Source of the DNA: Hungatella sp.
Lineage (GTDB): Bacteria; Bacillota; Clostridia; Lachnospirales; Lachnospiraceae
Reading direction: 5' to 3'
Assembly: GCA_022795805.1 (NCBI GenBank)
Contig: JAAWHK010000016.1
Location: forward strand, 1 to 37,318
DNA length: 37,318 nt
Below the pieces are notes generated by a model. That model had not been told where the DNA came from. It made no database searches and saw only the letters and a list, made by a program, of their open reading frames with translations. Below are positions 34,384 through 37,318 of this stretch, one piece after another; the first letter of the stretch is position 1, and the number at the start of each line of letters is the position of its first letter. Position numbers and translations under genes: made by a program.

Positions 34384-35295
34384 TTAATACAGCGGAACCA
34401 CAGCTCCCTCGTAGGTGGTTTCAATAAACGCCTTCACCTCATCGCTCTCCAGCGCCTCAATCAGCGCCTTGATCGCCTCTTCGTTCTCCCTGCCCTCCTG
34501 CACCGCAATCACGTTGCCGTAGGTGGTGGCGGCGATGGACTGGGAGTCCTCCACAGCCAGGGCGTCGGACACTTTGAATCCGGCGTCAATGGCATAGTTT
34601 CCGTTAATGACAGCCACATCCACGTCGTCAATGGATCTGGGGATCTGGGCAGCCTCAACCTCGTACAGTTTGATATTCTTGGGATTCTCCACAATGTCGT
34701 TCTTGGTGGCGGTAAGCCCTGCGCCTTCCTTCAGCTTAATAAGACCCTGAGCCTCAAGAAGCAGAAGGGCTCTGGCCTCGTTGCTGGTGTCGTTGGGAAC
34801 CGCTACCGTGGCGCCGTCGGCCAGCTCCTCCAAAGATTTGGTCTTCCCGGCGTAGATGCCGAAGGGCTCATAGTGGATGGAAGCCGCGGATACCAGCTTG
34901 GTGCCGTTCTCCTCATTGAAGGACTCCAGGTAGGGAAGATGCTGGAAATAGTTGGCATCCAGATCCCCCGACTCCAGGGCCAGGTTGGGCTGAATATAGT
35001 CGACATACTCCTTGATGTCCAGCTCATACCCTTTGGCGGCCAGAACATCCCCTGCCGCTCTCAGAATCTCCGCGTGGGGCGCCGGGCTGGCGCCGATGAT
35101 AATCTTCTTCACTTCCCCTGAGGCCGCCGGCGCCGTATTGGTCACCTCTTTTGTCTCCGCCTGGGCCGCCGTGGTCTCCCCGCCGGCCGCCGTGGTCTGA
35201 GCCGCTGTAGTCTCAGTCTTTCCGTTTCCTGAACAGCCTGTGAGACTTCCCGTCAGCAGCGCCGCGGCTGCCAGCACACATATTGTTTTTCTCAT
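34384..35295 (-). CDS. metQ: Methionine-binding lipoprotein MetQ (NlpA family)
   Basis: 303 residues. Lipoprotein signal with C21 in LTGSLTGCSGN, then a Thr/Ala-rich linker, and the NlpA-family domain beginning IIIGASPAPHAEILRAAGDVLAAKGYELDIKEYVDYIQPN. Other marks are DANYFQHLPYLESFN, IAVPNDTSNEARALLLL-like (here VAVPNDTSNEARALLLLEAQGLI) and the C-terminus EAIKALIEALESDEVKAFIE. It captures methionine outside the membrane for MetNI. Third gene of the importer operon, 100 bp after metI. Confidence 0.95.
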   Translation of the reverse strand: MRKTICVLAAAALLTGSLTGCSGNGKTETTAAQTTAAGGETTAAQAETKEVTNTAPAASGEVKKIIIGASPAPHAEILRAAGDVLAAKGYELDIKEYVDYIQPNLALESGDLDANYFQHLPYLESFNEENGTKLVSAASIHYEPFGIYAGKTKSLEELADGATVAVPNDTSNEARALLLLEAQGLIKLKEGAGLTATKNDIVENPKNIKLYEVEAAQIPRSIDDVDVAVINGNYAIDAGFKVSDALAVEDSQSIAATTYGNVIAVQEGRENEEAIKALIEALESDEVKAFIETTYEGAVVPLY

Positions 35296-35395: not shown

Positions 35396-36061
35396 TCAGC
35401 GTATCCGTTTATCCCCTTTTCTGGACATCCGCATGCCCGCTTCCTGGATGATCTGCACCATCACCACCAGAAGCACCACGGACACCCACATGAGCCCCGC
35501 CTCATACCGATAGTAGCCGTAGTTGATGGCAATGGCTCCCACGCCGCCTCCGCCTACAAACCCTGCCATGGCGGAGTAGCTTAAAATGGTGGTGACCGCC
35601 AGGGCCCCGCCCACCAGAAGGGACGGCCGGCACTCCGGCAGAAGCACTTTCCATATGATCTGCCAGTCCGAAGCCCCCATGGACTTGGCGGCCTCGATGA
35701 CGCCGCCGTCAATCTCACGCAGGGAGGACTCCACCACCCTGGCCACATAGGGGCCTGCCGCGATGGTCAGGGGAATCACCATGGCCGGGGAGCCGATGCG
35801 GGTTCCGATGACCATCTTTGACAGGGGCAGGACAATGAACAAAAGAATCAGAAAGGGCACGGACCGAAGCAGGTTGATCACCGTACCCAGCACCTTCTGC
35901 AGCACGGGCATGGGGTGGATGCCGTCGGTGTCCGTGACGACCAGAACGATCCCAAGGGGAAGTCCGATCACATAGGCAAACAGGGAGGACAGAAACACCA
36001 TGTAAAAAGTCTCCCAGATACCCGTCTTCAACATCTGTATAGTCGCCGGATCAAATGTCAT
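35396..36061 (-). CDS. metI: Methionine ABC transporter permease MetI
   Basis: 221 residues with five membrane segments. The N-terminus TGIWETFYMVFLSSLFAYVIGLPLGIVLVVT and the EAA-type coupling loop AAKSMGASDWQIIWKVLLPECRPSLL match MetI. Two copies form the methionine channel. Its ATG lies inside the metN 3' end (11-bp overlap), so translation is coupled. Confidence 0.96.
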   Translation of the reverse strand: MTFDPATIQMLKTGIWETFYMVFLSSLFAYVIGLPLGIVLVVTDTDGIHPMPVLQKVLGTVINLLRSVPFLILLFIVLPLSKMVIGTRIGSPAMVIPLTIAAGPYVARVVESSLREIDGGVIEAAKSMGASDWQIIWKVLLPECRPSLLVGGALAVTTILSYSAMAGFVGGGGVGAIAINYGYYRYEAGLMWVSVVLLVVMVQIIQEAGMRMSRKGDKRIR

Positions 36062-37064
36062 CTCCCGTTACCTCCTCATATGGAATCTTAACTGTCTCTA
36101 AATAGTGGAGAGCCCTGGCAGCCTCCGCCTCATCGTCGGGAAGCTGGACAATCATCTGCCCCATGGCCTTCCCGCCCACGTCCCTGGTCTGGGCGTACAT
36201 GATGTTCACCGCGGTCTTGCACGCCAGCACCATGTTGGAGATCACCGGTTCTGTGGACTCCCTGCCGTCGAAGATGATCCGTATCTGCCTGGAATTGCCG
36301 AAATTCACCTGTCTGGCAGCGTCTCCCAGAATCAGCTGACGGCCGATTTTTGACTTGGGCTCCGAAAAAATATCGGACACCCTTCCCACCTCCGCGATAT
36401 GGCTCTGATCGATGATCGCCACCCTGTCGCAGATGGCCTCGATCACCGCCATCTCGTGGGTGATCACGATCACCGTAACCCCCAGGTCTTTGTTGATCTC
36501 CTTCAAAAGCCCCAGAATGGACTTGGTGGTGTTGGGGTCCAGGGCGCTGGTGGCCTCGTCGCACAGGATAACCTTGGGATTGGTGGCCAGGGCTCTGGCG
36601 ATGGCCACTCTCTGCTTCTGTCCTCCCGACAGCTGAGCCGGGTAAGCCCCCGCCTTGTCCTCCAGGCCCACGGTCCTCAAAAGCTCCATGGCCCTGGTCC
36701 TGGCCTGTGCCCCCGGCGTGCCTGCAAGCTCCAGGGGAAAGCACACGTTGCGCAGCACGGTTCTCTGGGCCAGAAGGTTAAACTGCTGAAAGATCATCCC
36801 CATGGCCTGCCGGGTTTTCCTCAGCTCCGGCGAAGTCATCTTCCCCAGGCTTTTCCCCTCAAACAGCACGTCCCCCTCTGTGGGAACCTCAAGAAAATTG
36901 ATGCAGCGGACCAAAGTACTCTTTCCGGCACCGCTCAGGCCGATGATGCCGAAGATTTCGCCCTGGCAGATGTCCAGATTGATGTCGCCCAGGGCCCGGA
37001 CTTTTCCCTCCGTCGTCTGAAATTCTTTTCCCAGATGTGATATCTGGATAATCGGCTGCTCCAT
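36051..37064 (-). CDS. metN: Methionine ABC transporter ATPase MetN
   Basis: 337 residues from the ATG at 37064, which has GGAGG five bases upstream; a TTG four codons earlier overlaps that site and is unlikely. Walker A GLSGAGKST (42-50), Q-loop, signature LSGGQKQR (145-152), Walker B VILCDE (165-170), H-loop in VIVITHEMAVIEA. The C-terminal NIL domain (about 265-337), which binds methionine and inhibits transport when internal methionine is high, is present. First structural gene of metNIQ, directly after a terminator and a Met-rich leader ORF. Confidence 0.97.
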   Translation of the reverse strand: MEQPIIQISHLGKEFQTTEGKVRALGDINLDICQGEIFGIIGLSGAGKSTLVRCINFLEVPTEGDVLFEGKSLGKMTSPELRKTRQAMGMIFQQFNLLAQRTVLRNVCFPLELAGTPGAQARTRAMELLRTVGLEDKAGAYPAQLSGGQKQRVAIARALATNPKVILCDEATSALDPNTTKSILGLLKEINKDLGVTVIVITHEMAVIEAICDRVAIIDQSHIAEVGRVSDIFSEPKSKIGRQLILGDAARQVNFGNSRQIRIIFDGRESTEPVISNMVLACKTAVNIMYAQTRDVGGKAMGQMIVQLPDDEAEAARALHYLETVKIPYEEVTGDDI

Positions 37065-37085: not shown

Positions 37086-37118
37086 AAAAAAAGCCGTAAG
37101 TCCTATAGACCTACGGCT
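37086..37118 (-). terminator. Attenuator terminator in the metNIQ leader
   Basis: An 11-bp stem with one G-U (5' arm 37108-37118, AGCCGTAGGTC; 3' arm 37092-37102, GACTTACGGCT) and a 5-nt TATAG loop, followed by seven T on the minus strand (37086-37092). It ends 22 bp before the metN ATG, downstream of the Met-rich ORF, so it must be read through for importer expression. Being inside the operon leader, it is best explained as a regulated terminator. Confidence 0.9.
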
Positions 37119-37140
37119 GACATTTCACTGCTCAGACAAA

Positions 37141-37169
37141 ATACCTTCCGGTATGTTCACCGGGGGTAT
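37141..37169 (-). promoter_or_regulatory. Hairpin spanning the leader ORF stop codon
   Basis: Ten pairs in two blocks (ATACC/GGTAT and CCGGT/ACCGG) separated by a small internal loop, with a 6-nt loop. The leader stop TGA (37157-37159) lies at the top of this hairpin, so a ribosome finishing the peptide would melt it. Its last bases are followed by TTTTG. Confidence 0.65.
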
Positions 37170-37306
37170 GTTCTCTGCAAGGTAAGCTCTGTCGTCCCTA
37201 CAAGACCTTCAAATCCACTGAATTGTACGCACATGAACATACGGCACATGACCATCATGCCGTCTGCCATACACATATGCATCATCATGGACTTTGAATT
37301 GTACAT
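37157..37306 (-). CDS. Met/Cys-rich leader peptide of metNIQ
   Basis: A 49-codon ORF upstream of metN. GGAGGAG lies five bases before its ATG, at the very edge of the window, and it ends in TGA at 37157. It carries 11 Met and 3 Cys; residues 7-25 read MMMHMCMADGMMVMCRMFM, ten Met in nineteen. The remaining 24 residues are ordinary (ending QRTYPR). It is followed after 38 nt by an intrinsic terminator and then the methionine importer. I infer a regulatory leader peptide whose translation rate reports methionyl-tRNA, and perhaps cysteinyl-tRNA, supply. The frame stays open upstream to the window edge, so a longer ORF cannot be fully excluded; a metal-binding micro-protein is the main alternative. 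Confidence 0.75.
   Translation of the reverse strand: MYNSKSMMMHMCMADGMMVMCRMFMCVQFSGFEGLVGTTELTLQRTYPR
37241..37263 (-). promoter_or_regulatory. Leader hairpin inside the Met cluster (1:2 pairing)
   Basis: ACGG pairs with CCGT and CATGA with TCATG around a 3-nt loop, with a 2-nt bulge. The 5' arm covers codons 15-18 and the 3' arm covers codons 19-22 of the leader peptide. Its ACGGC and GCCGTA cores are the same words that form the downstream terminator stem, which makes alternative pairings possible. Confidence 0.6.
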
Positions 37307-37318
37307 TGCAGCTCCTCC

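Follow-up and report, generated by a model that had tools for sequence, protein, structure and literature searches.

A putative methionine attenuator with a Met- and Cys-rich leader peptide ahead of metNIQ in Lachnospiraceae

Results

The leader and the metNIQ operon

The window (the whole stretch of DNA that was analysed, 37,318 nucleotides) carries a methionine transporter operon on its minus strand. It is composed of metN, the ATPase of the methionine ABC transporter (36051..37064; best of 196 families TIGR02314, 5.6e-104, 347.9 bits against a cut-off of 499.7), metI, the permease (35396..36061; PRK10782.1, 209.3 bits, cut-off 212) and metQ, the substrate-binding lipoprotein (34384..35295; TIGR00363, 189.1 bits, cut-off 228.85). 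The three scores fall below the curated cut-offs, with the methionine transporter models still being the best matches. Upstream of metN and on the same strand lies a Met-rich leader ORF of 49 codons (MYNSKSMMMHMCMADGMMVMCRMFMCVQFSGFEGLVGTTELTLQRTYPR, 37157..37306), whose Shine-Dalgarno (SD) sequence GGAGGAG (37312..37318), read directly from the sequence, is separated from the ATG at 37306 by a 5-nt spacer. The encoded peptide has 11 Met and 3 Cys, and residues 7-25 hold 10 of the Met. At 38 nt past the ORF stop begins an intrinsic terminator (37086..37118, minus strand) with a 12-bp stem spanning 37118-37092 and a seven-T run ending at 37086, for which the homologous terminators of other clades covary; 21 nt separate it from the metN ATG at 37064. 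Two features by which attenuators are recognised are thus present, a short SD-led ORF enriched in the codons of the regulated amino acid and an intrinsic terminator between this ORF and the structural genes.

An earlier note on this DNA had described the same SD with its five-base spacing, the 49-codon ORF with its Met and Cys counts and the T7-tailed terminator 38 nt after the stop, and direct reading agrees with it on these points. The distance from the terminator to metN is 21 nt and not 22 as given there. Folding of the leader strand beats 200 of 200 shuffles (z -5.3), and an Rfam scan of the whole window returned a tRNA as its sole match. The conserved stretch of the ORF comprises about its first 28 codons; the tail is variable, 8 of the 9 nearest relatives having an ORF of 27-36 codons only. 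Since the last ~20 codons of the window ORF are unconserved, only its Met-rich part is characteristic.

An assembly break cuts the leader, which is why the window stops within it. An identical overlap of 99 nt links window 37220-37318 to G000:C122:16320-16418, the two being contigs of one genome. Contig C122 carries, behind another gene, a sigma-70-like promoter (TTGACA-17-TAGAAT) that ends 57 nt before the leader ATG, and as this promoter block is also found in near relatives, it supports C122 as the true continuation of the window. A promoter-like site (at least 9 of 12 matches) precedes 61 of the 62 leaders with enough upstream DNA, this being a raw count with no shuffle baseline.

Recurrence of the leader before metN

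Genomes of GTDB were scanned for metN, and the best 80 of 552 loci by MetN similarity were retained. In 64 of these 80 loci the 600 nt upstream of metN contain an ORF that has at least 6 Met within 20 residues. At a threshold of at least 7 Met in 20 residues, it was found in 63 of 79 upstream regions versus 0 of 7,900 dinucleotide shuffles (locus L020, with 150 nt upstream, was omitted from this comparison), which rules out a chance ORF; at least 6 Met arise in 11 of the 7,900 shuffles. A terminator follows the ORF in 63 of the 64 leaders as detected by script, and in the 64th (L008) by eye. Hence the check that the earlier note had proposed, whether a short Met-rich ORF followed by a terminator recurs ahead of metN, gave a positive answer. 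Moreover, all 26 loci found with a leader profile (E<0.01, downstream DNA present) adjoin metN. In one leader, L074, a Clostridiales-1 RNA (RF01699, L074:2758-2929) is located between the Met-rich ORF and metN.

Among the other 16 loci, 9 have a T-box, L020 and L045 are cut by a contig end, and in L012 metN starts ~20 nt behind the preceding gene. Inspected by eye, L044 and L063 retain promoter and terminator and have no Met-rich ORF; these are apparently broken or minimal attenuators. The leader of L078 has shrunk to 5 Met and L082 has no leader.

Signs of translation and peptide conservation

The 64 leader ORFs encode 57 distinct peptides, and an SD-like motif stands ahead of 63 of the 64 ORFs. 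The consensus MxxxxxMQMNMxMMxGMMxMCRMFxC was derived from 38 peptides (alignment A2), hand-picked from the 57 plus that of the window. In several columns Met hardly ever varies, and Gly and Arg recur often. All 64 leaders share the pair Met-Cys at alignment columns 25-26, its Cys being encoded by TGC in 50 and TGT in 14, so that the synonymous variation looked for on the earlier note's suggestion is seen in this column. Residues 2-27 of the 57 distinct peptides consist of 34.0% Met and 10.9% Cys, the selection of peptides having considered Met content, with Cys playing no part in it. Indels within the ORF core have lengths of 3 or 6 nt, those of 1 or 2 nt being located near the ORF 3′ end. Constraint at the RNA level is seen as well, since the codons of columns 19 and 20 keep a C in third position while differing in the first two. 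A named protein family was sought in NCBIfam with no match for the window peptide and two of three relatives, the third giving a meaningless match (E 0.024).

Competing helices

Three regions of the leader RNA, all on the minus strand, can be drawn into alternative pairings. Region 1 (37287..37305) consists of ORF nt 2-20, from the start codon to the first Met of the cluster, and forms 17 pairs with the stretch GUGGAUUUGAAGGUCUUGUAGG (37197..37218), made up of region 2 and an extension on its 5′ side. The region 2 core (37197-37208) pairs alternatively with region 3 (UCUAUAGGACUU, 37098..37109), which is made of the terminator loop and its flanks; these 12 pairs would constitute an antiterminator. 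Other clades have an element CUGUAUGGAUUGUGA after or at the ORF end, in differing frames or untranslated, which is the counterpart of region 2 in the window and can pair with the early ORF (helix 1:2) or with the terminator 5′ arm and loop (helix 2:3). In the window and in L003 the ORF passes through region 2 (window 37157-37217) because the spacing before region 2 differs from that of the relatives, and therefore a ribosome would stop near the terminator and not at region 2.

Pairing was followed outside the window clade in alignment A1, 35 of the 64 leaders hand-picked for diversity, in which the 3′ ends of L037, L056, L057 and L066 were trimmed by hand and the terminator loop of the L022/L030 group is misaligned. 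Helix 1:2 was paired in 93.5% of cells versus 22.7-48.4% in slid versions, helix 2:3 in 91.8% versus 24.1-41.5% and the terminator (3:4) in 94.6% versus 26.1-48.7%. Two-sided cells numbered 26 in the terminator, spread over 6 pairs, with 0 and 6 of 500 shuffles reaching these values, against 2 in helix 1:2 and 0 in helix 2:3. In letter shuffles of helix 1:2, 4 of 500 were as high for cells paired and 300 of 500 for two-sided pairs; for helix 2:3, 254 of 500 were as high for cells paired. Within the window clade (A3, 10 sequences), AGGUCUUGUAGG pairs with UCUAUAGGACUU in 120/120 cells of helix 2:3 (slid versions 25.0-51.7%), with no two-sided change and 500/500 letter shuffles as high for cells paired. 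Helix 1:2 of the same clade, AGGUCUUGUAGG and the 5′ extension with ORF nt 2-20, was paired to 97.0% over 17 positions (slid versions 29.1-53.2%), with one two-sided change (L008) and 50 of 500 shuffles as high. Shuffling of letters thus sets helix 1:2 apart only weakly and helix 2:3 not at all.

Strong covariation is thus seen in the terminator only, and helices 1:2 and 2:3 stand on conservation and on the slid controls. Scarce two-sided changes are what would be expected of an element held by two partners, an expectation that does not amount to proof. By conservation only, a mutually exclusive antiterminator (2:3) and anti-antiterminator (1:2) appear to be present, and through these conserved competing helices a ribosome stalled at the first Met codons could bring about antitermination.

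Folding with a masked ribosome

Equilibrium folding was performed with a ribosome mask on transcripts cut before the terminator 3′ arm for 59 leaders, leaving out L027, L037, L056, L057 and L066 (script-drawn terminator >42 nt) and one duplicate. With no ribosome, the antiterminator probability was below 0.5 in 24/59 leaders and at least 0.5 in 35/59. Masking within codons 5-14 lifted it above 0.7 in 20 of the 24 low-starting leaders. The mean rise was 0.16 to 0.22 for masks on codons 2-13, 0.12 for codon 14, about zero for codons 20-25 and 0.10 to 0.14 for codons 30-31; the later Met codons (15-28), though some are invariant, had little mean effect. Masks on codons 2-6, ahead of the Met cluster, helped as much as those on the first Met codons because the mask reaches region 1, and a mask at the stop codon likewise favoured the antiterminator in many leaders. 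Given the high start of 35/59 leaders and the effect of masks on codons other than Met, the model is crude and leaves the fast-translation state unexplained. As proof of attenuation these energy-model probabilities were set aside, being equivocal and bearing on equilibrium, not on kinetics.

S-box and T-box elements

Methionine genes of Firmicutes are usually assigned to S-box or Met T-box RNAs. With Rfam, no S-box (RF00162) or T-box (RF00230) was detected in the window or in the 21 leader loci scanned (19 distinct), and no Rfam family fits the leader in these 21 loci, besides the Clostridiales-1 RNA of L074, located beyond the ORF. The window's own genome (78% complete) has one S-box match, on contig C13, in front of a protein read here as MetK, and six T-box matches, on C68, C29, C116, C105, C10 and C16, three of them over the cut-off; both kinds lie on other contigs than C48 and C122. 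The remark in the earlier note that no hallmark of either element is visible here therefore stands, the upstream contig C122 included. That either element lies immediately before the window's end of the leader was rejected on the C122 sequence together with the genome-wide positions of the matches.

Among 26 genomes covered from the window's genus, MetN was matched at E<=1e-100 in 24. The leader is found in 10/24, a T-box in the same place in 12/24 and neither in 2/24, of which L156 has metN directly behind a gene and L163 is cut at 227 nt. Nine T-boxes of the GTDB loci show GAAC-AUG-G at the specifier as placed here. In a MetN tree of 49 hand-picked rows (L078 was labelled as leader-bearing by hand; L127, L131, L138 and L142 were labelled 'none' despite other Met/Cys-rich upstream ORFs), the 10 T-box rows form one clade (support 95/82) nested among leader-bearing rows. 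The branch uniting this T-box clade, with L012, and the window's clade has a support of 99/96; outside it all ingroup rows but one are leader-bearing, the deeper forks being weak. A quick tree of 100 rows agrees; in it L128, an additional row with a T-box, stands far outside. Most simply, that branch would have had the leader first and acquired the T-box later, although either the T-box or metN may conceivably have been transferred horizontally. Our initial idea, the leader as a replacement of a T-box, was abandoned, as the tree favours the reverse.

Leaders across the wider family

A profile search of the own genome detected a single leader, besides the contig end that overlaps it. It found the leader in at least 17 of 299 family genomes (the own one included) and in 10 of the 26 genus genomes, with 3 more only at E 0.35-0.98. 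These counts are lower bounds, since L200 (genome G117, within the 299-genome sample), of the window type by eye, was missed by the profile. Weak genus matches (E 0.29-0.98) were rejected as leaders, having no metN nearby. Among 391 genomes of the class, the search returned the own genome, one more family member and four weak, unrelated matches (E 0.02-0.08); the latter, with no metN nearby, were likewise dismissed as leaders outside the family.

A family set of metN regions was then assembled from the 68 of 150 genomes in which MetN was matched at E<=1e-90. Within 450 nt, 18/68 regions have an SD-led ORF in which 16 residues include at least 5 Met+Cys (at least 3 Met), versus 17 of 4,080 shuffles; at a threshold of at least 8 Met+Cys the counts are 15/68 versus 0 of 4,080. 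Inspection by eye assigns ten of these 18 ORFs to the window type; the other eight differ from it and precede metN in other genera (L127, L131, L142, L181, L188, L189, L191 and L206), those of L181 and L188 being alike. A terminator-like hairpin follows in 9/9 cases tested, the eight and L200, although at a looser threshold than for the 64 leaders, with no shuffle baseline and with a poor T tail in L181. A further Met/Cys-rich upstream ORF lies 576 nt upstream of metN in L138. Two of the 68 regions, L117 and L128, have a T-box, and 47/68 have neither such a leader nor a T-box at these thresholds, a few of them being cut by contig ends. As a side observation, Met/Cys-rich leaders in other genera may have arisen repeatedly or may turn over very fast. 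An attenuator that reads codons would be expected to retain Met/Cys content without its sequence being fixed.

Discussion

Comparison of the leaders brings together an ORF, its SD, a promoter-like site, a terminator and three competing helices, with recurrence before metN and exchange with a T-box. Anatomy and comparison give strong support, at roughly 0.85, to a ribosome-mediated attenuator that would adjust metNIQ transcription to the supply of methionine. From these sequence features we infer stalling of ribosomes in the leader, charged Met-tRNA as its signal and a resulting change in metNIQ transcription. RNA polymerase would start ~50 nt upstream of the leader ORF, onto which a ribosome would load. 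With ample charged Met-tRNA, the ribosome would clear the Met cluster and free region 1, which would then hold region 2, allowing the terminator to form before metN. With scarce Met-tRNA, the ribosome would wait at the first Met codons (7-14), covering region 1, and region 2 would be left to capture the terminator loop and its flanks, letting transcription proceed into metNIQ. It is worth considering that methionine starvation hits initiation as well as elongation. Reduced initiation on the leader would by this reasoning favour termination, which counts against an attenuator of this kind, and thus an attenuator reading Met codons must work despite that. Also weighing against the reading are the low profile count in the family (17 of 299 genomes, a lower bound), the 47/68 metN regions with neither leader nor T-box, and the loci L044, L063, L078, L082 and L012, in which the Met-rich ORF is missing or shrunken.

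Perhaps the leader senses more than Met. As Met and Cys codons occur together, and one Cys is invariant in 64/64, a wider reading may be put forward, in which a dual sensor of Met or Cys opens metNIQ, leaders of the family arose repeatedly or turn over fast, and a T-box later took over in one branch. We regard this combination as tentative and rather doubtful.

Another possibility is nascent-peptide arrest, in which a Met/Cys motif would stall the ribosome on a small ligand (methionine, SAM or other) with the same terminator output. Conservation beyond Met would suit it, namely the Met-Cys pair kept in 64/64 leaders with synonymous Cys codons and the frequent Gly and Arg, yet pairing explains part of the conserved RNA, and the leaders before metN in other genera stay Met/Cys-rich without the motif, which makes arrest improbable. 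We hold it still less credible that the leader is an unrecognised riboswitch or a protein-binding leader, with the ORF incidental. The highly conserved RNA element after the ORF could be read in this way, as could the lack of a fitting Rfam family in the 21 loci scanned apart from the L074 Clostridiales-1 RNA; however, pairing with regions 1 and 3 accounts for that element, and conservation extends to the Met codons, the SD and the reading frame of the core. The least probable of all is a functional Met/Cys-rich small protein (e.g. metal-binding) lying beside metN by chance, with a terminator that merely trims the operon, since its 11 Met, 3 Cys and conserved core have to be set against the adjacency to metN of 26/26 profile loci with downstream DNA, the T-box in the same place in sister species and the competing helices that extend to the terminator.

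The attenuator proposed here is of a mechanism type that is already known. Like the trp, his and leu attenuators, it has a leader ORF in which the regulated amino acid abounds, helices that exclude one another and an intrinsic terminator before the operon; it differs in that the amino acid is Met (with Cys), that region 1 lies at the ORF start, around the first Met codons, and that the hosts are Lachnospiraceae relatives. The earlier note had known of no described example in Clostridia. We found no Met leader of Firmicutes in an open-access PMC library, subscription papers being mostly outside this search; Met leaders have been proposed in Streptomyces and Campylobacter, so that such leaders are not without precedent. 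The Lachnospiraceae system, the within-genus exchange with a T-box and the Met-with-Cys make-up were likewise not found in print in the same library.

In Streptomyces lividans, a 29-aa metL leader was proposed before metNIQ, with no typical terminator, as described in the accessible part of that report (PMC8079986). As in the present case, the leader peptide is short, is located ahead of metNIQ and has Met and Cys in one stretch (CMCRRMC in metL). It differs in having 3 Met among 29 residues, the start included, in being leaderless and in coming from one genome, and the same accessible part shows no competing helices, unlike the window leader (PMC8079986). In Campylobacter jejuni, MetL is listed together with an MMYQMR small ORF upstream of a methionine transport gene, and an initiation signal was seen for MetL, according to the available portion of that study (PMC11955535). 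These are likewise leader ORFs with Met codons, although from another phylum and, in that portion, given with neither terminator nor helices (PMC11955535). As for other methionine genes, no conserved RNA structure was reported for the methionine operons of Actinobacteria in 2005, within the accessible text of that paper (PMC1262725), and Met T-boxes are mentioned for Lactobacillaceae in the accessible text of another (PMC4239095).

The hisS gene of Firmicutes offers a parallel for the exchange of sensors, His leader peptides being found there in place of T-boxes, as related in the accessible part of the source (PMC2965389). In both cases leader peptide and T-box alternate at one Firmicute gene; the amino acid there is histidine. 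In the present case a single genus shows the exchange, for which the tree suggests that the leader preceded the T-box. The Met T-box (RF00230) of the sister species occupies the same place before metN and presumably responds to the same signal, Met-tRNA charging, and it differs from the leader in binding the tRNA directly and in needing no ORF. A group of Lachnospiraceae relatives thus appears to sense Met-tRNA by translating a leader, and two sensors of one presumed signal, exchanged at one gene within a genus, would constitute a natural test of regulator replacement.
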